NCBI RefSeq assembly: GCF_001610875.1 | Contig: NZ_CP011272.1 | Span: 4,817,988-4,881,987, forward strand | Source of the DNA: Pirellula sp. SH-Sr6A | GTDB taxonomy: Bacteria > Planctomycetota > Planctomycetia > Pirellulales > Pirellulaceae | Direction: 5' to 3' | Length of the DNA: 64,000 nt | Shown: positions 7,271-54,938 of the stretch, in pieces | How the letters are laid out: every line of letters starts with the position of its first letter | How positions within the stretch are numbered: position 1 is the stretch's first letter | Translations under genes and position numbers: made by a program | Notes under the pieces: generated by a model | Seen by the model: only the letters and a program-made list of their open reading frames with translations | Told to the model about the DNA's origin: nothing | Database searches by the model: none

Positions 7271-7322
7271 AAGTCCCGATAGGGACGACAGACACTAACC
7301 CAGCACTTCAGTGCTGGGTTAG
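7271..7322 (+). repeat. Solitary REP-like double hairpin after the operon
   Basis: This lies 55 bp after the stop of the esterase fusion gene. It contains the small palindrome GTCCCGATAGGGAC, then a spacer, then CCCAGCACTTCAGTGCTGGG, a perfect hairpin with a 2-nt loop. The same module recurs at 7776-7827 and 8734-8785 and in reverse orientation at 8061-8112 and 9019-9070. Position and structure suit a REP-type element; it could also stabilise the 3' end of the operon transcript. Confidence 0.7.
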
Positions 7323-7336
7323 GAAATCGCGCTTAA

Positions 7337-8140
7337 AAGTCTTTAACATCCTCAGGTAGAGCACGACGACAACGACTTTCCCGAGATCCCCATCCTGGAC
7401 AATTACAGGTTAGCGAGGAAGGAACCAGGCAATTCTTTCGACATCTCACATTGATTTCCAGGCAATCGTGTGCTGCCGGACATGTGGTCGATAACCTATG
7501 ACTTCGCGACCAATCCACTCCTCGGATTACATGAGAGCAGAACACTAATCGTCGCTAATCAACACTAAAAAAAGGCAACAGGATTGTCTTGGTTTTGATT
7601 AGTGCGAATGAGTGGAAATTAGTGTTCCTGCGTTCTCAAGACGCTGAAATTCACATTCTAGCAATGTCCATGTTTGTTCTCTGACCGCTTGACCCATTTC
7701 TGCGGTTTCCCCTGGGTTGATGAGCAACCGTACATGCGGGGACTCCCAGTGTTATGAGGTTTCGGACAGGCTCTTAGTCCCGATAGGGACGGCAGACACT
7801 AGCCCAGCAATTCAGGGCTGGGTAAGGATCCCAAAGGCTCTTCAGTCCCGGCAGGGACGAAAGAACGCGTTGTGTGTTCGGACGAGTAATAATGTACTAC
7901 CGCGTAGCAATGCCACCGTCTCGATCCGGTCCCTGTTGCAAACGCGGTCGATGGAATGGGCAGGTCATGTTAACGAATCGATAACACGCAATTCATCGCG
8001 ACACCCGTTTGCCTCGTTGGGATTTCTTTCGTCCCTACCGGGACTTGGGCGACGCGGGCCCACCCAGCCTTGAAAGGCTGGGCTATTCTCTGCCGTCCCT
8101 ACCGGGACTAAGACAGACATTCGCACTTGGCAACGCCAAG
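7337..8140. repeat. Compound repeat unit 1 (~0.8 kb, BIME-like core)
   Basis: This non-coding stretch is repeated with high similarity about 954-958 bp further on. It contains, in order, a divergent leader (AAGTCTTTAACATCC), an ACTAAT palindrome (7540-7627), a REP module in + orientation (7776-7827), a short REP AGTCCCGGCAGGGAC (7844-7866), a ~155-bp spacer, the short REP inverted (8023-8045) and the REP module inverted (8061-8112). The nested inverted arrangement resembles a bacterial interspersed mosaic element. No convincing gene lies inside; the open frames are short, and read-through of the hairpins gives repeated peptides such as PGRDERNP. Confidence 0.75.
7540..7627. repeat. Imperfect palindrome of ACTAAT/ATTAGT motifs
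   Basis: The ends are perfect inverted repeats: GAACACTAAT at 7540 and ATTAGTGTTC ending at 7627. Inside, CTAATCAACACTAA and TTGATTAGTG add further pairing. A diverged copy lies at 8494-8585 in the second unit with the outer arms intact. It could be a structural RNA hairpin or a protein-binding site; nothing in the sequence decides. Confidence 0.6.
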
Positions 8141-8290
8141 GTGTGATTGCGTATCCATTTCGAGCCAAGCTCGAGAGTTTGACTAGGAACCGATCAAGAT
8201 TCAATTGCTCGTGGAATGCACCAATACTGGGGGCCGCGAGTGTTGCCCACCGGGATAGGTACTTGCCCGGTGGGGAAGACTAGTCCTTGA

Positions 8291-9098
8291 AAGTCTTTAA
8301 CATCCTCAGGTAAATCACGACGATAACGACTTTCCCGAGATCCGCATCCTGGACAATTACAGGATAGCTTGGAAGGAACCAGGCAATTCTTTCGTCATCT
8401 CACAGTGGTTTCCAGGTAATCGTGTGCTGCCGGACATGTGATCGACAACCCATGGCTTCGCGACCAATCAACTCCTCGGATTGCATGGGAGCAGAACACT
8501 AATCGTCGCTAATCAACACTAATAAGGAATATCAACAAGGTTGTCGCGGATTTTGATTAGTGTGAATCAGTGGAGATTAGTGTTCCTGCTTTCTCAAGAC
8601 GCTGAACATTTCATTCTAGCAATGCCCCTGTTTGTTCTCTGACCGCTTTCCCCAATTCTGCGGTTTCCCCTGGGTTGATGTGCAACCGTACATGCGGGGA
8701 CCCCCAGTGCAATGAGGTTTCGGACAGGCTCTCAGTCCCGATAGGGACGGCAGACAATAGCCCAGCACTTCAGTGCTGGGTAAGGATCCCAAAGGCTCTT
8801 CAGTCCCGGCAGGGACGAAAGAACGCGTTGTGTATTCGGACGAATAATAATGCACTACCGCGTAGCAATGCCATCGCCTCGATACGGTACCTGTTGCGAA
8901 CGCGGTCGATGGAATGGGCAGTTCATGTTAACGAATCGGTAACACGCAATTCATCGCGACACCCGTCTATCGCGATGGGATTTCTTTCGTCCCTACCGGG
9001 ACTTGGGCGACGCGGGCCCACCCAGCCTTGAAAGGCTGGGCTATTCTCTGCCGTCCCTACCGGGGCTAAGACAGGCATTCGCACTTGGCAACGCCAAG
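8291..9098. repeat. Compound repeat unit 2 (~0.8 kb, BIME-like core)
   Basis: This is the second copy of the unit at 7337-8140, in the same orientation, with scattered substitutions and small indels. The REP modules lie at 8734-8785 (+) and 9019-9070 (inverted), with the short REPs at 8802-8824 (+) and 8981-9003 (inverted). The stems are conserved while loop bases differ (CCCAGCAATTCAGGGCTGGG in unit 1, CCCAGCACTTCAGTGCTGGG here). Together with unit 1 it fills most of the gene-free stretch 7216-9220. Between the units (8141-8290) no feature is visible. Confidence 0.75.
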
Positions 9099-40430: not shown

Positions 40431-40470
40431 AAATGAAAATCGGGTAGGAGGCGGGATTACTCCCGCCGTC

Positions 40471-40511
40471 CTCCCACACCACCGTACGTACGGTTCCGTA
40501 TACGGCGGTTC
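40471..40511 (-). ncRNA. Group II intron domain V
   Basis: The - strand reads AACCGCCGTATACGGAACCG followed by TACGTACGGTGGT, a ~34-nt hairpin with the GAAC-type loop and CGT bulge region expected for the catalytic domain V. It lies a few bases after the maturase stop, as in intact introns, and is followed by the domain VI hairpin at about 40442-40465. Confidence 0.75.
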
Positions 40512-40515
40512 AGGT

Positions 40516-41895
40516 CTAACGACGATTCAGCTCAGTGCCTTTCTGGACGAGGCTTATCAGCCCAAGTTGCGTGAGGTGGCGAGTAGGCAGGGCCTGATTC
40601 ATGTGGCTAGCGCCAGCATTCCACCAGGGGCCATGACCATTGCCAGCACAGACCCACGCTCGCACGCGGTCAATGCCAAGGCGAGTCAGTTCGCGGGCTC
40701 GTTTGGGCGGACGCTTCCATTGGCGCCAGTAGATGGCGCGTAACTTCCTGCGTAACCAGCTATCAAGTTCCTCGAACGTTTTCTTCACTTCACTCTTCCG
40801 GTAGTACGACACCCAACCGATCAGGACCGGCTGCAACTGAGCAAGCACCGTACGCACATTGCGACCTCGTGCCTTGCGGAGTTCCTCGCGTAGGCGACCC
40901 TTGAAGCGTTTGACCGATTCAGGAGACACCTTAAACTTCGGTTGGTGATGGTGCGTGAACGTATAGCCCAGGAACTTGCGGTTCCAGGGGCGGTCCACGG
41001 CACTCTTGGCTCGATTCACTGTCAGTCGCAGTTTCTCGCTCAGGAAGCGTTCGACACCATTAAGCACTCGCTCACCGGCGCGGTGACTGCGAACGTAAAT
41101 GTTACAGTCATCAGCGTAGCGAACGAATTTGTGGCCTCGGCGTTCCAGCTCCTTGTCCAGCTCATCGAGCAGGACGTTGGACAGAAGCGGTGATAAGGGA
41201 CCGCCTTGCGGCGTTCCCTCGCTGCGTGGACTCACGATGCCGCCTTCCATGATGCCAGCTTGCAGATACAAGCGGATCAGTTTCAGGATGCGTTTGTCTT
41301 GGATCTGACGTGCAAGGCGACTCATCAGGATGTCGTGATTGACGCGATCGAAGAACTTTTCCAAGTCCATGTCGACAACCCAGCGATGCCCTGAAGCAAT
41401 GTGTTCCTTGGCACGATCCAACGCCTGATGCGTACTCCGGCCTGGGCGAAACCCAAAGCTAGAATCCGAAAACATTGGATCGTAGAGCCTCGTGAGCACT
41501 TGCAGTAAAGCTTGCTGGATCAAGCGATCTAGCACTGTCGGTATGCCCAGCATGCGCATCCCTTTGCCACCGGGTTTAGGTATTTCTACCTTTCGCACAG
41601 GGCTCGGACGATACGTTCCGCTGAACAGTTCTTCCCGGTGGCGTTCCCAATGCTCTCGGCAGTAGCCTGGCAGTTCATCGACGGTCACCCCATCAACGCC
41701 TGCGGCTCCTTTATTACCGACAACACGGCTCAACGCCTGCAACATATTGCTGCGGCTTAGCACCTCCTCCATCGTGACGGTGACTGAATGTTCAGTGTTC
41801 TCATTGCATGCCGGAAGTGTTTGACGCGCGTACGAATTACCCTCAGCGGTTCCGCCGCATACTCTTGTTCGCCGCTCAGGCTTCTCAGCCGTCAT
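40516..41895 (-). CDS. ltrA: Group II intron reverse transcriptase/maturase (class C)
   Basis: The 459-residue protein has RT blocks in order: GAAGVDGV, RPSPVRKVEIPKPGGKG, FGFRPGRSTHQAL, VVDMDLEKFFDRVNHDILMS, GTPQGGPLSPLLSNVLLDEL and the catalytic YADD (residues 260-263), followed by SAVDRPWNRKFLGYTF and an X/maturase domain (WLRRKLRAIYWRQWKRPPKR). There is no En endonuclease domain, in agreement with class C; the blocks closely resemble the thermostable GsI-IIC enzyme. It splices and mobilises its own intron RNA by target-primed reverse transcription. All RT blocks are intact, so the intron may be active. A shorter product from Met42 (MEEVLSRSN) is possible. Confidence 0.95.
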   Translation of the reverse strand: MTAEKPERRTRVCGGTAEGNSYARQTLPACNENTEHSVTVTMEEVLSRSNMLQALSRVVGNKGAAGVDGVTVDELPGYCREHWERHREELFSGTYRPSPVRKVEIPKPGGKGMRMLGIPTVLDRLIQQALLQVLTRLYDPMFSDSSFGFRPGRSTHQALDRAKEHIASGHRWVVDMDLEKFFDRVNHDILMSRLARQIQDKRILKLIRLYLQAGIMEGGIVSPRSEGTPQGGPLSPLLSNVLLDELDKELERRGHKFVRYADDCNIYVRSHRAGERVLNGVERFLSEKLRLTVNRAKSAVDRPWNRKFLGYTFTHHHQPKFKVSPESVKRFKGRLREELRKARGRNVRTVLAQLQPVLIGWVSYYRKSEVKKTFEELDSWLRRKLRAIYWRQWKRPPKRARELTRLGIDRVRAWVCAGNGHGPWWNAGASHMNQALPTRHLTQLGLISLVQKGTELNRR

Positions 41896-42380
41896 CTCTG
41901 CGTCTACCTCACATCACGAATACTTTGCACCAAACGGTTAAACTTGTTCGGCCCTTCGTCAGCTAAAGCCTCCGACTACTATGGCCTCTGCTGACTTCTA
42001 CGGTGACATCGTAACCTCTTGCGAGGCAACTAGCTTTGCAGCATCCCCGTAGATCTCTCAGGGTAAGACGCGTAACTTTCCTCTCGTATATTCGCCGCAT
42101 ATACGCCGACTCGGTCCGAATGACATTGGGCTTTGAATCTTCGTGCCTTCTCGCCCACCGGGTCGTCGCCTCGTATACGGTTCGTGTACCTCGAACCGAG
42201 AGTTTGCCTGCTGCTTCCTTCAGATTCAGAGTTGCCCCTGACACCCTTGCAGTCGACTAGGAGTTCCTGTCATCAAGGCCTCCATCGGGACTTGCACCCG
42301 ACAAGTTACTTCCTGGTTCACTTTCGCTTGCCAGTTGCGAGCGTCAGTCAATGACGCTCCGCGTCATGCCTGACGCACAC

Positions 42381-46295: not shown

Positions 46296-47405
46296 TTAAA
46301 GTAGTCCTAACGCATTAAATGGTAAGCTGCCATATATAGGAATCTCAATCCAAAACGCTGCCGTCACGTCTCGCTGTCTCGTTCCGTCTGGTTTGAGAAG
46401 AACTGGCTTGCTTGTTGGATCGCCTCTGTCGTCTAGCGCACGAACGATCTTCGACTTGTATCCGCTTCCGTCTGCTGTAACGGTAACGCTGGTCACAATT
46501 CCATCAGTGACGGTAGCGGTAGCGGTTGCTCCTGTTCCTGTTCCACCGATTGCCACTGTAGGCGCGGACGTGTAACCGGTCCCACCATTGAGGACGTGAA
46601 TAGACTCGATTCCTTCACTTGGGTTTACGATCGCCACCGCAGTCGCTCCAGTTCCACCACCACCGGAAAACGTAATGGGAACATCCCCGATTCTCTCTTG
46701 ATACCCTTCGTGCCTCACTCGCTTCCACCATGCCTTGGCTGGTATGGTTCGGTAAGGTCTCCGGCAAACAAACTGGGCTTGCACCTGGAAGTACTTGTAC
46801 GGTGCTTGCGAAACTTCTCTAGCAGTCAGCGACTTTACCCTGACCGTTCCAGGCGGCCAGTCTAGGAAAGTGTCTGAGTTGGTTGCGTTGCGGTACAAAG
46901 CCTGTGCGTAGGAACTGAAAGTAAACAGGTTCCTACTGACAGTGTAAACCTGATCGGTGAATGGTCGCGTAACGCCTTCGATGATTTCCCCGTTAGCGTT
47001 GATTAACGGGTTGCCATAGAAGTCCTCGTCAATCTCCTCTTCCGACTCCTCGTCATTCAGATCAATAACCGGAGGAGTGAAAACAGGATGGTTTTCCGCT
47101 GGATTGCTAGGATTCTGCGCCCCAAACTCGCCTCGGTACTCCAGGTCCATCCGGTAGTAGATCGGAGAAACTTTCTCCAGGTTTGCCTTCTCGAAAAACG
47201 CAAACGTAGTACCTGGAAATGGATCTCCTCGGTTTGGCATCTCGCTGATGCTGTAGACGTCCAAGTCTGTAGCGTCGAAATCCGTGATGATGTGCAGCCG
47301 CCGTGACAGCGTAAGCTCAGTCTTGCGGAAGTTATCCGTGTGCGCAAGATTGCTCGGCCCACGGCTCCATCCCTCTGTAACGCTTTGAATCTTTGACGAT
47401 ACCAT
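46296..47405 (-). CDS. Tail-associated protein with glycine-rich beta repeats
   Basis: The protein has 369 residues. The first two thirds are alpha/beta with YKYFQVQAQFVCRRPYRTIP. Near residue 245 comes a glycine-threonine-rich stretch with NGGTGYTSAPTVAIGGTG and ATVTDGIVTSVTVTADGSGY, a beta motif that recurs in phage tail and fibre proteins. It ends with a short globular region. It directly follows the tape measure gene (TAATG overlap), where distal tail proteins are usually encoded. A distal tail or baseplate role is inferred from position. Confidence 0.55.
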   Translation of the reverse strand: MVSSKIQSVTEGWSRGPSNLAHTDNFRKTELTLSRRLHIITDFDATDLDVYSISEMPNRGDPFPGTTFAFFEKANLEKVSPIYYRMDLEYRGEFGAQNPSNPAENHPVFTPPVIDLNDEESEEEIDEDFYGNPLINANGEIIEGVTRPFTDQVYTVSRNLFTFSSYAQALYRNATNSDTFLDWPPGTVRVKSLTAREVSQAPYKYFQVQAQFVCRRPYRTIPAKAWWKRVRHEGYQERIGDVPITFSGGGGTGATAVAIVNPSEGIESIHVLNGGTGYTSAPTVAIGGTGTGATATATVTDGIVTSVTVTADGSGYKSKIVRALDDRGDPTSKPVLLKPDGTRQRDVTAAFWIEIPIYGSLPFNALGLL

Positions 47406-48880
47406 TAGCGTTGCTCCAGATTAACGGGGACTGGCTTGTTCTGCTTGGTGGCTTCAATCAAGTCGGCTTGCAGCTTTCGCATTTCGGCTAGGATGTCCGC
47501 CGCCTTTTTGGTGCTATCAGCTATCTTGACTTGGAAGCCTTCGCCACCTCCTCGAAGGAGAGTGCGAGACTGGACAGCTTGGAGCGGACCGCTAGCTGTA
47601 ACCTGTTCCTTTACGACTTGTTGCTTCTGTTGCTCCATGCGTTGAAGCTCCTGTTCGCGTGCTGCTATGCGAGCAGCATCGGCTGCGTCAAGACCTTCGA
47701 ACTCTAGGGCTTGCCTCCTGGCTGCCTCTGCACCGTCTTCGAGTGCGATCCTCCTTATCTCCAAAGCTCTGTTCAGAGAAATTGTTTTCTCTTCAAGTCG
47801 CATTGTTTGATTGAACTCTTCGTCAGCAGCTCTTTTCCTTGCCTCTTCTTGCTGTCGCTCAAACTCCTGCTGCTTCCTCTGGTCCTCAAGAATCCTTTTC
47901 TCTTCTTCTAGTTTTGCGGCCTTTTCGTCAGCGATTCGGTTCGCTTCTTTTTGCGACTCGATGTTTTTCTGAACCTCTATCTGCTGGTCACGAATCAACT
48001 GTAAAGATTCCTTTTGCGACGCAATATTCCTTTCAATTTCTTCTCGCTGCAGTTCCGCTGCACTCTTGCCGGTAGCAAAAGAGAAGATATTTCCATCCTC
48101 GTCAAATGTGCTGATCGCTTTCTTTTGTTCGTCCATTTTGGCGATTGTCTTTCCAATCGCCAGAGCTTGGTCATCTAACCTTTCTATCAGCTTGAGCTGG
48201 GCTTCCTCCTGCGCAGCCGGATCTTCAATATGAGCGATGTCTTGCATATCTCTCGAAAATCTATCGGATGCAAACATCCTTTGCTTTTGATTAAGCTTGT
48301 CCTGTAACGCAATGGAATCTTCGAGTGCCTTATTCCACTTTTCAGTTTCGAATACAAGGTCTCCAATAGCTTTTCCTATTCCGAATCCTATTGCTGCCGC
48401 CGCAGAAACCAGTCCAGCTTTGAACGCCAAAGCTCCAGCTCCTCCTAGCTTAGACACCTCTGAAAACTGGCTTATCTTCTCTGTCAGGCTTCCAACCTGA
48501 CCTGCTACAGATCCAACCTGACCGGCTCCTGCGAGTGATGATACAGACCCGAGAAACTCTACAGTTGCCTTTGTTCCTTTGGCTCCTGTGGGTCCCTGGC
48601 TGGCTTTGTCTTGCTCAGCCTTGATTTTCTTGAGTTGTTCGACGTGAGCCTTTTCTTTTGCGATCAAATTGGCAGTAGCTTCGTCCAGTCCCTGTAGCTG
48701 CAGCTTGTACGAATAAGCAGCTTCCTCGCCTTGCTCAAGTGCGATACGTTCAAGCTTCAATGCCTCCAGTTCCTTGTCTCGAATTTTAAGGAACTTCTCA
48801 AACTCCTTTTCGACTTTCTTTAGTTCTGCGGTAGCTTTGTCTTCGGCAGAAATCAGAATCCCTACGCTTTCAGTCGTCAT
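47405..48880 (-). CDS. Tail tape measure protein
   Basis: The 491-residue protein begins with a typical ILISAEDKATAELKKVEKEF leader, followed by coiled coils, a hydrophobic Gly/Ala stretch (about 145-175, KAGLVSAAAAIGFGIGKAIG) and long heptad-rich Lys/Glu/Gln segments (about 270-420). Two related blocks occur near residues 42-80 (LERIALEQGEEAA) and 375-416 (IRRIALEDGAEAA), an internal duplication. The protein would set tail length; 491 residues suggests a fairly short tail. It overlaps the chaperone gene at its start by 11 bp. The tape measure call is supported by gene order as well as by composition. Confidence 0.8.
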   Translation of the reverse strand: MTTESVGILISAEDKATAELKKVEKEFEKFLKIRDKELEALKLERIALEQGEEAAYSYKLQLQGLDEATANLIAKEKAHVEQLKKIKAEQDKASQGPTGAKGTKATVEFLGSVSSLAGAGQVGSVAGQVGSLTEKISQFSEVSKLGGAGALAFKAGLVSAAAAIGFGIGKAIGDLVFETEKWNKALEDSIALQDKLNQKQRMFASDRFSRDMQDIAHIEDPAAQEEAQLKLIERLDDQALAIGKTIAKMDEQKKAISTFDEDGNIFSFATGKSAAELQREEIERNIASQKESLQLIRDQQIEVQKNIESQKEANRIADEKAAKLEEEKRILEDQRKQQEFERQQEEARKRAADEEFNQTMRLEEKTISLNRALEIRRIALEDGAEAARRQALEFEGLDAADAARIAAREQELQRMEQQKQQVVKEQVTASGPLQAVQSRTLLRGGGEGFQVKIADSTKKAADILAEMRKLQADLIEATKQNKPVPVNLEQR

Positions 48881-49196
48881 AGTCTTCTGCCCTCAATGCT
48901 GCTTCTTCGTTTTTGAAAACTGATACCGCGTCCAGGAACCAAGCCGATTGGTCCAGCGATCCGCCTAATACTGGCGGTATTCCTTTTTCGAACAGACCTG
49001 CAAGCCTTACAGCCATCGCAACGTCACTGCACATTTCACCAGGACAACCATCAATTGATACAAACCCGTCTTGGCAACTGTCGCATCCTTGACCGTCACA
49101 CGAACCGCATTCGATTTCGATTGGTGAATCGGGGGTTCCTTTGCTTTTGCATTCCGTGCGAGTGCATAAACTACAAAGCCTCCCGCGACGAATCAT
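48870..49196 (-). CDS. Tail assembly chaperone, frameshift extension (T part)
   Basis: The 108-residue frame begins at an ATG but is probably translated mainly as a -1 frameshift extension of the preceding gene. It contains a DnaJ-like zinc cluster: CGSCDGQGCDSC with CSLC near the start. Position directly before the tape measure gene equals lambda gene T. The frame is exactly -1 relative to the upstream gene after the A9 run. The zinc knot may bind the tape measure protein. The product is called a chaperone by position and frameshift, not by sequence similarity. Confidence 0.65.
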   Translation of the reverse strand: MIRRGRLCSLCTRTECKSKGTPDSPIEIECGSCDGQGCDSCQDGFVSIDGCPGEMCSDVAMAVRLAGLFEKGIPPVLGGSLDQSAWFLDAVSVFKNEEAALRAEDYDD

Positions 49197-49207
49197 CGCC
49201 GCGATCC

Positions 49208-49558
49208 TTAGCTTTTTTTTTCTTCCACCGAAACGAACCCGCTATACAGCAATCGTCCAAGTACGTTTCGAATGTCCGTTGTGTTAAGCGTGTCTAATAC
49301 GTTATCCAGCGTTAACGGTTTATCACCAACGTTTTCCCACCCGCTAACATGACGCAGAAAGCATTCAGCACATGCTTTTGTCCATGTCGCCAGATCGCTG
49401 CTTCGGAGAATCTCTGAAAGTTCGTCGATTTCTTTTCCAAGCTCTACTTGTCCCCGACACGTTTTTGCCTTTGCTAGAAACAAAGGCTTTTGACTCTTTG
49501 GGAGATGGTCGTGTTCTGGGAGACAAATGCGCTGGGTTTCTGTTGGATCTAGAATCAT
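49208..49558 (-). CDS. Tail assembly chaperone (G part)
   Basis: The 116-residue helical product (LGKEIDELSEILRSSDLATW and DNVLDTLNTTDIRNVLGRLL) lies between the tail tube gene and the tape measure gene, where siphoviruses encode gpG. Its end reads GAA GAA AAA AAA AGC TAA, so the last codons lie on a nine-A slippery run just before the stop. A -1 shift would join it in frame to the next gene through KLRIAA, giving about 229 residues. Both products, short and long, are expected. Confidence 0.65.
   Translation of the reverse strand: MILDPTETQRICLPEHDHLPKSQKPLFLAKAKTCRGQVELGKEIDELSEILRSSDLATWTKACAECFLRHVSGWENVGDKPLTLDNVLDTLNTTDIRNVLGRLLYSGFVSVEEKKS
49211..49225 (-). promoter_or_regulatory. A9 slippery sequence for -1 programmed frameshift
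   Basis: On the - strand GAAGAAAAAAAAAGC contains a run of nine A (49213-49221) that includes the heptamer A AAA AAA in the correct phase for tandem -1 slippage. The stop codon TAA follows after one codon, and the -1 frame enters the downstream gene without a stop. Confidence 0.7.
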
Positions 49559-49560
49559 AG

Positions 49561-50499
49561 TTACGCTGCTGGAGTGAAGACGATTGAAAATTCTTGGTCA
49601 GGAGTCGAGCCGTTTTGGTTGAACTGAAGCTGTATGTCATCGGTTTCAACACCTCCTCGGTCACCTTCTTGGATGCTCACGATCTGTGCTTTGGGAGCCG
49701 CGATGGTCACGTAGCTTGTCGTTGGGCCTGGGATGGTCATAGAGAACGCTTCCTCTGCCATCGACTCGAACATGCCGTAGCGGTCTTGCGTCGCAACGAG
49801 CACGGCTTCTGGATCTCCGGAGAGGACTGGCGTTCGGTCTAGGATGAGTCCGTATGCGTACCCCTCTACATCGGCTTGGCATTCGTGCGGAGTGACTGTG
49901 TTGCCGAAATCCAGGCTCAGGCTTGAAGAGCACAACGCAACGCCATCCAAGGTCGTCGTGCTGTTCTTGTAGAACATCTTGGAAACGGTCGGGTACGTCG
50001 GGGCAATCAATGCCTCGTCCTCAACAGGAACCCAAATTCCAGTGAATGTGAACGTTGTGAATGGAGTCTTGTTCGTTGGGAATTCCGTCACAGCGGTACC
50101 CGATGCGCCTCGAAGTTTCTTCAGCTTGCCATCGATGTATGTCGCAATGGTAAGCGTCTTGACGTTCGCCCCTGGAGCTTCCGTTCGTGGTGTGAATGTC
50201 AGTGTGGACTTAACCAACCCACACGCAGGAAAGAGGGTATCAACCCATTTAGGCAGAGTCGAAGTTCCGTCCCATTCCCAATCGTGGACGAAGCTGATAA
50301 CGCCAATCTTCCCAGCGACGACTGAGGCTCTCTTGCCAAATGCACCTTGCCCGGGTCGAGATTGCACGTCAAAGTTCGGCTGCGGAGATTCAATGTTGTA
50401 GGCATTGAACTGTGCGTCTGACGTGGTTAGCGATTCTGCGGTGCCTGCTGCTGTCTCGATCTTCGCAGCAAAAACCCTTTTCATTTTTAGCCTTGGCAT
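49561..50499 (-). CDS. Major tail (tube) protein
   Basis: The 312-residue beta-rich protein starts KRVFAAKIETAAGTAESLT, the usual N-terminus of phage tail tube proteins. It has segments such as FTFTGIWVPVEDEALIAPTY and DFGNTVTPHECQADVEGYAY, and ends with a ~75-residue Ig-like extension (AAPKAQIVSIQEGDRGGVET). It lies between the tail terminator/completion genes and the chaperone pair, the conserved position of the tail tube gene. It would form the hexameric tube rings. No sheath gene is present, which supports a siphovirus. Confidence 0.75.
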   Translation of the reverse strand: MPRLKMKRVFAAKIETAAGTAESLTTSDAQFNAYNIESPQPNFDVQSRPGQGAFGKRASVVAGKIGVISFVHDWEWDGTSTLPKWVDTLFPACGLVKSTLTFTPRTEAPGANVKTLTIATYIDGKLKKLRGASGTAVTEFPTNKTPFTTFTFTGIWVPVEDEALIAPTYPTVSKMFYKNSTTTLDGVALCSSSLSLDFGNTVTPHECQADVEGYAYGLILDRTPVLSGDPEAVLVATQDRYGMFESMAEEAFSMTIPGPTTSYVTIAAPKAQIVSIQEGDRGGVETDDIQLQFNQNGSTPDQEFSIVFTPAA

Positions 50500-52691: not shown

Positions 52692-54938
52692 TCACGCAGA
52701 GTTGCGGAACAACCCACGCCAATCGATCGCCTTCGCACCCATCGTCTGGCGAATCCTGTACTTGTAGGTGTCGGTGTCGAAGTCTTCCTCTGTGTCGATC
52801 ACTGGGCTTTCCTCACCTTGCAGGAAGGTGATTTCGACGGTATCGACCTGCGAAGGATCGGCAGCCAAGTACCAATTCGTGGAGCTTGCAGCGTCCAAAA
52901 GAGGCTCGGCAACAAGCGTTAGGTTCTTACGTTGTCCGCCTGGTCCGTAGATGTTCAGCGTATTGCTGTTACCAGCAGCACTACCACCTACAACAGGGTC
53001 GGAGAACGAGCCAAGAAGCTGCATTGCTGTCGCTTCGTAGTTGACCGGCACAATCAAGTAGCGAGGCTCGATGTTGAGAATAGCACTGGTGTTGAGACCA
53101 GTTTGCTTTCGCATTTTGAGGAACCCTGCGTTGAGTGTCGCCACGGCTGGAGCCGCTGCACTTCCAGACGTGTTATCGCCAGAAGCATGGCTGGAGCTGA
53201 ACAGTGCGTTACCGTCGCCCATTGTTGGGTTCGAGGTCAGAACGCTATAGACCAACGCGTTTTGCGTGCGTCGTGCAGCAACACCCATTTTCGCGGTCGT
53301 TCGGCTGATGGCGTCCAAATCATCATTGATGATTGTTTCCCAAGAGACCGTAAACTCTGCACCGTACTTGCTGATCTGGTACGACTCTTTCGAATCGCTC
53401 ATTCGGTTTTCTGGGTACTTCGCGTTTTCCGGAACCATTTCCAGGTTCGGGAATTCGCTTATCCGAGTACGGTAAATAGTCTTCAAGTCTGGAACAGAAG
53501 CAGCTTGACGCGCCCACATGCTCCAGGTGTATGGTGCTTCTTCGTACTCAGCCAGAAGCGACTTATTGATTGCATCCAAGAGGATGTTCGGGAAGCTGCC
53601 AGTGGTGTGGTACGCGGACCGCATCAGGATGTTGTGATTCTTGAGAACGCGAGGGTTACCCATCGCGGCCAGAACAACATCCTTCCTCGACATTCGCTCG
53701 ATCTTTGCTCCGCTTCGAAGCAAACATTCGCGTGCGATTTCGTCCAATGGCTTGTTGACGAAATCTTGACCTCCTTCCAGTTTCAACTTCTTGGAAGCCT
53801 TGTTATGGCTTCGCATGATGATCCCGGCACTTACGGCACTGGCGAACTTGTCGTCTGCGCTCTCAGTGATCCGAACGTCAGCACCGACCGACGTTCCTAA
53901 TGGTTCAGTTGCCATACGTTCAATGATCCTTTTTCGAGCGTCAGAAACACTTACAAAGCCATCGCAAAGCTCGTCTGCAAAGGAACGCTCAATCCTTGCG
54001 AGCTTGACGGCGGCTTGAATTTCTTTTCGGCGTGCAGCATCGGCATCGAGTGCACGTTTGATTTGCAACTCTGCGTCTTGCTTGCTGCGTTCGATTTTCT
54101 GATTTCCCATGCTGTTCTCGACCTTCTCAACAGGTGCAACAGGCGATTCGGCAGGTGCAGCCTCTGCTTGCTGCATGTTTTCTACTACAGGGTTTTCCGT
54201 CGACATGTTTTCAACAGGTGCAGCCTGTTCAACTGGTTCCATCTCCATCTTGGTCATCAACCAAGAAAGGATTTCGGTTGGGTCGGTAACGCCTTCTGGC
54301 AGACCCATAGAGGACAACTTCGCCATCTGGCTACCGTCCATAAGTTCTCTCCTTTGGTCTGCAAAAGACCGTTTGACATAGGAATAGTTGTCAGCGCCTG
54401 TAACGCATAACGTTGCGTTCATTGGTCGCCAACGGGAAACGATGATCGCAGGGCCTTCAACAAGAGTGCCCGCTTGTGTCGTGTAAGTACGCCCAGGAGA
54501 AAGCTCAAAGGCTTCCAGCGTCTCGGCGGTAATCGAGAAGTCGGTAAGGTGTCCCTCTTCGTATCGCGTCGCGATCTTTTGCGACTCTGGATCGCTCGCG
54601 AATAGTGGACGCGCTTGGAACTCAGACCCTACGATCGAAATATCTTTGAGCGATCCGAAGACGTTGTGAACGGTCGTATCGTCGTGCGAGTCAACGATCG
54701 GGATCGAGTGATTCCCTGGCCGCATCTCGCAACCAGCCATTTCAAGGACATGGACGATCGGCTTCTTGTTTTCTGGATGCAAATGCTCAACAGGGTTCTC
54801 CGTGGCGATCACGGCGAGACCATCGGTGAGTGACTGGAACTGCCTCTTGATGACAGAGCCACCGGCGAACACAACAGGCTTTCTCGCGTCCAAGTCTTTG
54901 CGTCTTTTGATCAATGCGGATTTATTCACTGGCGACAT
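52692..54938 (-). CDS. Prohead protease-major capsid protein fusion
   Basis: One continuous frame of 748 residues joins two proteins that are usually separate. Residues ~30-215 are a prohead protease of the HK97/S78 type with His85 in VDSHDDTTVHNVFGSLKDI and Ser135 in LTDFSITAETLE. A Pro/Ala/Glu/Val-rich linker (about 232-285) leads to a helical scaffold-like segment (about 290-350) and a capsid domain (about 400-748) resembling Mu-like gpT: WETIINDDLDAISRTTAKMG, NALFSSSHASGDNTSGSA and EPRYLIVPVNYEATAMQLLG. The protease probably frees the capsid part and removes the scaffold during maturation. Its start overlaps the portal gene by 17 bp. Confidence 0.82.
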   Translation of the reverse strand: MSPVNKSALIKRRKDLDARKPVVFAGGSVIKRQFQSLTDGLAVIATENPVEHLHPENKKPIVHVLEMAGCEMRPGNHSIPIVDSHDDTTVHNVFGSLKDISIVGSEFQARPLFASDPESQKIATRYEEGHLTDFSITAETLEAFELSPGRTYTTQAGTLVEGPAIIVSRWRPMNATLCVTGADNYSYVKRSFADQRRELMDGSQMAKLSSMGLPEGVTDPTEILSWLMTKMEMEPVEQAAPVENMSTENPVVENMQQAEAAPAESPVAPVEKVENSMGNQKIERSKQDAELQIKRALDADAARRKEIQAAVKLARIERSFADELCDGFVSVSDARKRIIERMATEPLGTSVGADVRITESADDKFASAVSAGIIMRSHNKASKKLKLEGGQDFVNKPLDEIARECLLRSGAKIERMSRKDVVLAAMGNPRVLKNHNILMRSAYHTTGSFPNILLDAINKSLLAEYEEAPYTWSMWARQAASVPDLKTIYRTRISEFPNLEMVPENAKYPENRMSDSKESYQISKYGAEFTVSWETIINDDLDAISRTTAKMGVAARRTQNALVYSVLTSNPTMGDGNALFSSSHASGDNTSGSAAAPAVATLNAGFLKMRKQTGLNTSAILNIEPRYLIVPVNYEATAMQLLGSFSDPVVGGSAAGNSNTLNIYGPGGQRKNLTLVAEPLLDAASSTNWYLAADPSQVDTVEITFLQGEESPVIDTEEDFDTDTYKYRIRQTMGAKAIDWRGLFRNSA

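Follow-up and report, generated by a model that had tools for sequence, protein, structure and literature searches.

A conserved A-rich slip site in a planctomycete prophage probably joins two tail assembly chaperone reading frames by −1 ribosomal frameshifting

Two open reading frames (ORFs) of a long-tailed prophage very probably form a tail assembly chaperone pair of the lambda G/GT type, joined by −1 ribosomal frameshifting (probability about 0.9). They lie in the window, by which we mean the whole 64,000-nucleotide stretch of DNA that was analyzed. This reading of the sequence comparisons is based on the relation between the two frames, the slippery heptamer at their junction, its conservation in relatives, the absence, in about one third of the clusters of relatives, of a start codon that would allow separate translation, an excess of RNA stability downstream, and the gene neighborhood; the slipping itself, its ribosomal nature, its frequency and the roles of the proteins are what we infer. 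A −1 frameshift tail chaperone pair had been proposed in a preliminary description of this DNA, and the comparative evidence supports that proposal. The features at the junction are as follows.

49208..49558, minus strand: first ORF (0 frame), putative gpG-like tail assembly chaperone, 116 aa, ending in EEKKS and the stop
49213..49221, minus strand: run of nine A (A9), read from the sequence
49214..49220, minus strand: slippery heptamer A_AAA_AAA in the 0 frame, read from the sequence; A_AAA_AAN in 53 of 53 cluster representatives
48870..49217, minus strand: −1 frame extension, putative gpT-like, from the slip to the stop, 114 residues past the slip

The 116-codon ORF, 49558..49208 on the minus strand, ends in GAA GAA AAA AAA AGC TAA, with the A9 run at 49221..49213, just as the preliminary description had read it. 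At the junction the −1 frame reads AAG CTA AGG ATC GCG GCG ATG, and the earlier claim that it is open into the next ORF was confirmed, as it contains no stop down to 48870. A heptamer of the X_XXY_YYZ type, the kind expected of a −1 programmed frameshift signal, thus stands in the 0 frame near the end of the first ORF, and the second ORF lies in the −1 frame, the arrangement of a pair of the lambda G/GT kind. A −1 slip on A_AAA_AAA would yield a fusion of 115 + 114 = 229 residues, in agreement with the earlier estimate of about 229. The predicted junction-spanning peptide of this fusion after Glu-C cleavage is KKKLRIAAMIRRGRLCSLCTRTE; trypsin would cut its KKK junction to pieces.

In the mechanism that we propose, most ribosomes would end at the stop codon of the first ORF, giving the short gpG-like chaperone of 116 residues. 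A minority would reach A_AAA_AAA holding two Lys tRNAs, be slowed by an RNA hairpin about 9 nt downstream, and slip one base backward into the second frame, giving the 229-residue gpGT-like protein. By analogy with lambda, the tape measure protein would be the binding partner of the first domain and the tail tube protein that of the extension.

Relatives were gathered by protein similarity to the extension, not by slip site. Besides IMG/VR contigs, they comprise another prophage of the window's genome and a prophage in a further genome of the family; three of the contig searches contributed the best 80 of 161, the best 80 of 104 and the best 80 of 100 matches, respectively. A first set of 86 loci gave 30 clusters. 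For the full set, 221 locus rows were reduced to 104 nucleotide-distinct loci, the window included, which fell into 53 clusters at 90% identity; these 104 loci represent 100 distinct 160-nt cores, with four pairs having an identical core. Weak matches (L005, L006 and L096 to L102), duplicates (L001, L002, L093 and L103), and also L015, L016 and L104 were left out before counting. The heptamer was searched for in the 104 loci at no more than 30 nt from the start of homology and in one register relative to the extension.

A_AAA_AAN was present at the junction in all 104 loci and all 53 clusters, as A_AAA_AAA in 44 clusters, A_AAA_AAC in 6 and A_AAA_AAG in 3. The A run is nine bases long in 22 clusters, eight in 18, seven in 10 and six in 3. 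The preliminary description had named the loss of the slippery run in relatives as evidence against its proposal; the slippery site is found throughout, and the unit that is conserved is the heptamer and not the A9 run, which is present in only those 22 of 53 clusters. The distant member L095, outside the 53 clusters, reads A_AAA_AAA TAG at the junction when inspected by eye. The prophage belongs to a large uncultured phage family in which the slip site is kept in every member examined, and the three heptamer endings, the A6 to A9 runs and the RNA structure signal described below make up a natural series on the requirements of a slip site.

All three upstream frames of the 104 loci were compared with an alignment of the chaperone (A2). 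The extension lies at −1 relative to the homologous chaperone frame in 100 loci and in the +1 frame only in L138; the other three, L184, L217 and L235, gave no match to the chaperone alignment in any upstream frame. Unrelated frames in related prophages were what the preliminary description had named as evidence against a programmed slip, and the near-uniform −1 relation thus speaks for it. The A run of L138 is one base shorter than that of its close relative L122, and this exception might reflect a sequencing error, a broken copy or a different mechanism. As one exception among 101 loci with a recognizable chaperone, it does not shift the choice between explanations. With the exception of L048, which is cut by its contig edge, each of the 104 loci, including L184, L217 and L235, has at least 95 open codons in the 0 frame.

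In the 30 clusters of the first set, A_AAA_AAR is present at the junction in every cluster, and 2 of 6452 codon positions in the rest of the two ORFs carry it in phase. We considered the A run as a mere by-product of a conserved Glu-Lys-Lys sequence and found this account insufficient, because AAA represents only 41% of the 327 Lys codons found elsewhere in these clusters. It also fails on the six A_AAA_AAC clusters, in which the second Lys is replaced with Asn. The window prophage and the second prophage of its genome share an identical 20-base island at the slip site; the DNA upstream of the island is identical in 145 of 310 aligned columns, and the first protein at 30 of 116 positions.

When 297 genomes of the class were searched with a profile, only the window's own genome gave a match. 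An extension-profile scan of named genomes returned 69 stretches and a viral scan with the distant member L094 returned 23, none of which was confirmed in either case. The window extension had no match among 50,697 phage records, nor did the distant extension of L012 match phage records; that of L014 gave two partial matches (E 0.02 and 0.1).

The predicted RNA structure downstream of the slip site in the window is the following.

49183..49204, minus strand: predicted 9-bp RNA hairpin, candidate stimulator, 9 nt after the heptamer (−14.2 kcal/mol, z −2.74)

A downstream structure at 5 to 9 nt is common in −1 frameshift signals, though not obligatory. The 53 clusters show such a signal as excess stability at +8. 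Indeed, 48-nt windows that begin 8 nt past the heptamer had a mean z of −1.42 (SE 0.19) relative to synonymous-codon shuffles, with z below −1.5 in 26 of the 53 clusters, and for windows from +32 onward z ranged from −0.34 to +0.17. With dinucleotide shuffles of 30 clusters, a dip of −2.16 was found at the slip, and lesser dips at +210 (−1.19), −300 (−0.92) and −60 (−0.91). The window's own 54-nt region past the slip is unremarkable (z −1.62). A single consensus stem was abandoned, as RNAalifold gave no single consensus structure downstream of the heptamer in the relatives. Base-pair covariation in this region is slight, little above that of shuffles. The slight covariation and the lack of a consensus fold suggest that different members probably use different hairpins. 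We also discarded a Shine-Dalgarno-like element at −27 to −15, which is present in 7 of 53 clusters; four stretches lying further upstream contain one in 4, 7, 18 and 0 of 53.

The same 229-residue protein would be made from part of the mRNAs if RNA polymerase added one A on the A9 run. Runs of nine A are documented sites of bacterial transcriptional slippage, according to a passage of PMC5009743. The A9 runs of 22 clusters and the A8 runs of 18 are compatible with such a mechanism. However, ten clusters have A7 and three have A6, several of them ending in A_AAA_AAC or A_AAA_AAG, and runs of this length would be too short for efficient polymerase slippage. In addition, of the 101 loci with a recognizable chaperone, 100 share one register relative to the 0 frame, and the RNA structure signal lies downstream at the spacing of a ribosomal stimulator. 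The A6 and A7 runs in 13 clusters, the near-constant register and the downstream RNA structure thus favor a slip of the ribosome, and slippage of the polymerase appears unlikely. As an extra A in the mRNA yields the same protein, detection of the fusion peptide by mass spectrometry would fit ribosomal and transcriptional slippage equally.

A further explanation dispenses with the fusion altogether and concerns the following codon.

49194..49196, minus strand: internal ATG of the second ORF, possible start, not conserved (sequence and cluster comparison)

The ATG at 49196 would then serve as the start of the second ORF, whose translation would be coupled to termination on the first ORF but give a protein of its own. 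This ATG is found 11 nt past the stop codon of the first ORF, with an AAGG stretch upstream of it, and in nine clusters the stop codon comes directly after the heptamer, seven of them having an ATG that overlaps the stop. Nevertheless, in the stretch from the previous stop of the extension frame to 45 nt past the heptamer, no ATG is present in 33 of the 53 clusters, and none of ATG, GTG and TTG in 19. Residues that precede the ATG are conserved, with R3, A5 and A6 of the extension present in 53, 49 and 49 of the 53 clusters, respectively, and conservation extends back to the slip. Moreover, a separate gene would have no need of a slippery heptamer in all members. Since the start codon is not conserved in the clusters, we reject initiation at its own ATG as the main route to the second protein and regard it as highly improbable. 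The internal ATG is not a feature of the family, and it may give rise to some extra, separate product.

The window's first-ORF protein matches no named family. Among 26 members, three have matches to Phage_TAC_4 (best E 0.0043) and two to phrog_313, 'Tail assembly chaperone' (best E 0.011), all of them weak. The top PDB fold match of a model of the 0-frame protein (pLDDT 89.5) is the HK97 tail assembly chaperone 2ob9, again weak (E 0.48). Fold matches in BFVD include entries named 'Tape measure chaperone' or tail assembly chaperone (E 0.0058 and weaker), and two matches at E ≤ 0.001 are to unnamed or uncharacterized proteins. Individually weak, these chaperone matches, the position of the gene and the frameshift all point one way, to a tail assembly chaperone.

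The pair is flanked by two genes.

49561..50499, minus strand: tail tube homologue of 312 aa, matching the 'tail tube protein' of Agrobacterium phage JP1 (E 3e-8)
47405..48880, minus strand: tape measure gene by position and family, 491 aa; its start overlaps the end of the extension (synteny)

The 312-residue protein is homologous to the tail tube protein of JP1 and to proteins of six other phages, including Alteromonas phage P24 and Synechococcus phage S-LBS1. In 7 of 21 family members, the window's own not among them, the upstream neighbor matches phrog_290, 'minor tail protein'. Of 30 loci examined on the other side, 27 have a downstream ORF, which in 25 of them starts before the end of the extension. 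This ORF matches PHROG tape measure families in L012 and L014 (E 3.4e-25 and 6.2e-23), whereas the corresponding proteins of the window and of L013 have no match to these families, and the name tape measure is therefore based on family and position. The chaperone pair is thus located between a tail tube gene and a tape measure gene, the latter identified from L012 and L014, so that the lambda-like gene order put forward earlier was borne out. Further upstream are found a lambda-family portal, a capsid, a neck or gpZ-like protein, and a terminase-like protein.

Frameshifting in tail chaperones is well known, as passages of PMC5009743 and PMC10885494 attest. The window pair resembles lambda G/GT in its gene order (major tail protein, G, T, tape measure), its −1 frame relation, and the presence of an XXXYYYZ slippery heptamer near the end of the first ORF (GGGAAAG in lambda). 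It differs in the heptamer itself, which is A_AAA_AAN in the window's family and G_GGA_AAG in lambda, and the window's proteins match no lambda-type family. In HK022, too, the genes that lie between major tail protein and tape measure, gp13 and gp14, are paired by a −1 frameshift, but the gp14 extension has a single cysteine.

The extension of the window pair carries two overlapping cysteine features.

49044..49175, minus strand: eight-cysteine module of the extension (C15 to C58, the extension being numbered from KK)
49074..49109, minus strand: CxxCxGxGCxxC knuckle, CGSCDGQGCDSC (sequence and cluster alignment)

The extension begins with an N-terminal helix, continues with the eight-cysteine module, and ends in a helical C-terminal part, whose KGxPPxxGGxLDQ motif is common to other tail chaperone extensions; its model has a pLDDT of 86. 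The cysteines are spaced as C-x2-C-x4-C ... C-x2-C-x4-C-x2-C ... CP, and each of the eight is present in at least 52 of the 53 clusters. This putative zinc-binding module probably holds two zinc ions, and it represents a recognizable and testable part of the poorly understood T domain. The window extension has no Pfam or PHROG assignment, and a fold search of BFVD with its model gave no good match (best E 0.39). A sequence-profile search of the PDB yielded two matches over the cysteine stretch, both to phenylalanyl-tRNA synthetases (best E 0.004). Among the open-access articles listed as matches, we recognized in titles and abstract openings no description of zinc or cysteine clusters of this kind in tail chaperones or planctomycete prophages.

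A −1 extension with a CxxC...C...CP pattern is found in seven phages, namely RHph_TM16, RHph_I4 and vB_RleS_L338C (Rhizobium), RcZahn and RcTiptonus (Rhodobacter), JP1 (Agrobacterium) and P24 (Alteromonas). Most of these extensions also have a GG-x-x-x-Q-like motif, and the slip sites of the seven phages are A_AAA_AAC, A_AAA_AAG or G_GGA_AAC. JP1, P24, RcZahn, RHph_TM16 and RHph_I4 have a tail tube protein homologous to that of the window, and alignment with hhalign matched 38 C-terminal columns, the GGxLDQ part, to the extensions of P24, JP1 and RcZahn (E 2.2e-7). Unlike the window extension, those of the seven phages have the outer four cysteines without the CxxC-x4-CxxC knuckle, some with one further lone cysteine, and the knuckle was seen in the window's family only among the phages compared. 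The cysteine cluster had been described as not known from lambda gpT, and gpT indeed has no cysteine, but other phages carry this four-cysteine version in the same place. Synechococcus phage S-LBS1 has a homologous tail tube protein, an A_AAA_AAC slip site and a 0-frame protein that matches phrog_313, Tail assembly chaperone (E 2.1e-5), but its extension lacks a cysteine cluster.

The records of RcZahn and RcTiptonus name a tail assembly chaperone at this place, and those of the other five phages show hypothetical ORFs or no annotation. In P24, JP1, RcZahn, L338C, RHph_I4 and RHph_TM16 (L240, L241, L243, L245, L246 and L247, respectively), the apparent −1 fusions, with A_AAA_AAC or G_GGA_AAC as slip sites, are not annotated as fusions.

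From the cysteine patterns we infer that one metal site would be common to the four-cysteine phages and that a second, inserted site would be special to the window's family. It is conceivable, if on balance somewhat doubtful, that the extensions of this family form a class of their own, in which an ancestral one-zinc, four-cysteine T domain, surviving in the seven phages above, gained the CxxC-x4-CxxC knuckle and became a two-zinc recruiter of tail tube subunits, which would make tail assembly metal-dependent.

The preliminary description had called the zinc cluster DnaJ-like, and the CxxCxGxGCxxC motif is present as described, but membership in the DnaJ domain was rejected: no DnaJ Pfam family appeared at E ≤ 0.1 in 27 members. 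DnaJ carries four CxxCxGxG units; its central zinc domain would be recognized by these four repeats and a profile match, and the module has one unit and no family match. That the module is a genuine zinc domain of the DnaJ type, acquired by the phage and serving as a general protein-folding chaperone, is hardly credible, since the local CxxCxGxG resemblance and a phylum-wide profile search, in which 7 of 10 genomes matched over the cysteine stretch alone and inside long ORFs as DnaJ-like proteins would, are set against the single unit, the absence of a DnaJ Pfam match, the BFVD search without a good fold match, and the four-cysteine version without a CxxCxGxG unit in the same place in other phages.

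Other observations were made in the same prophage and around it. The Pfam capsid domain covers only residues 402 to 746 of the 748-residue product of the capsid gene (window 52692-54938, minus strand), and the first 400 residues, which have no assignment, are perhaps a fused protease or scaffold. In the gene after the tape measure (46296-47405, minus strand), a stretch of about 76 residues matches many virion structural and baseplate PHROGs and probably represents a shared surface domain. The same genome also contains a second relative of the prophage, a diverged one (L015, G000:C1:563500-583400); its ORFs of 602, 748, 239, 123, 165, 195, 311, 119 and 476 aa have the same or nearly the same sizes as those of the window prophage. 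About 5 kb beyond the tape measure gene lies a complete-looking group II intron (window 40439-42241, minus strand) with Rfam matches for D1-D4 and the catalytic domain, whose ORF at 40516-41895 encodes a reverse transcriptase/maturase (RVT_1, GIIM). Finally, four matches to Acido-Lenti-1 RNA, on both strands, are found within 1.8 kb at window positions 7272-9067.
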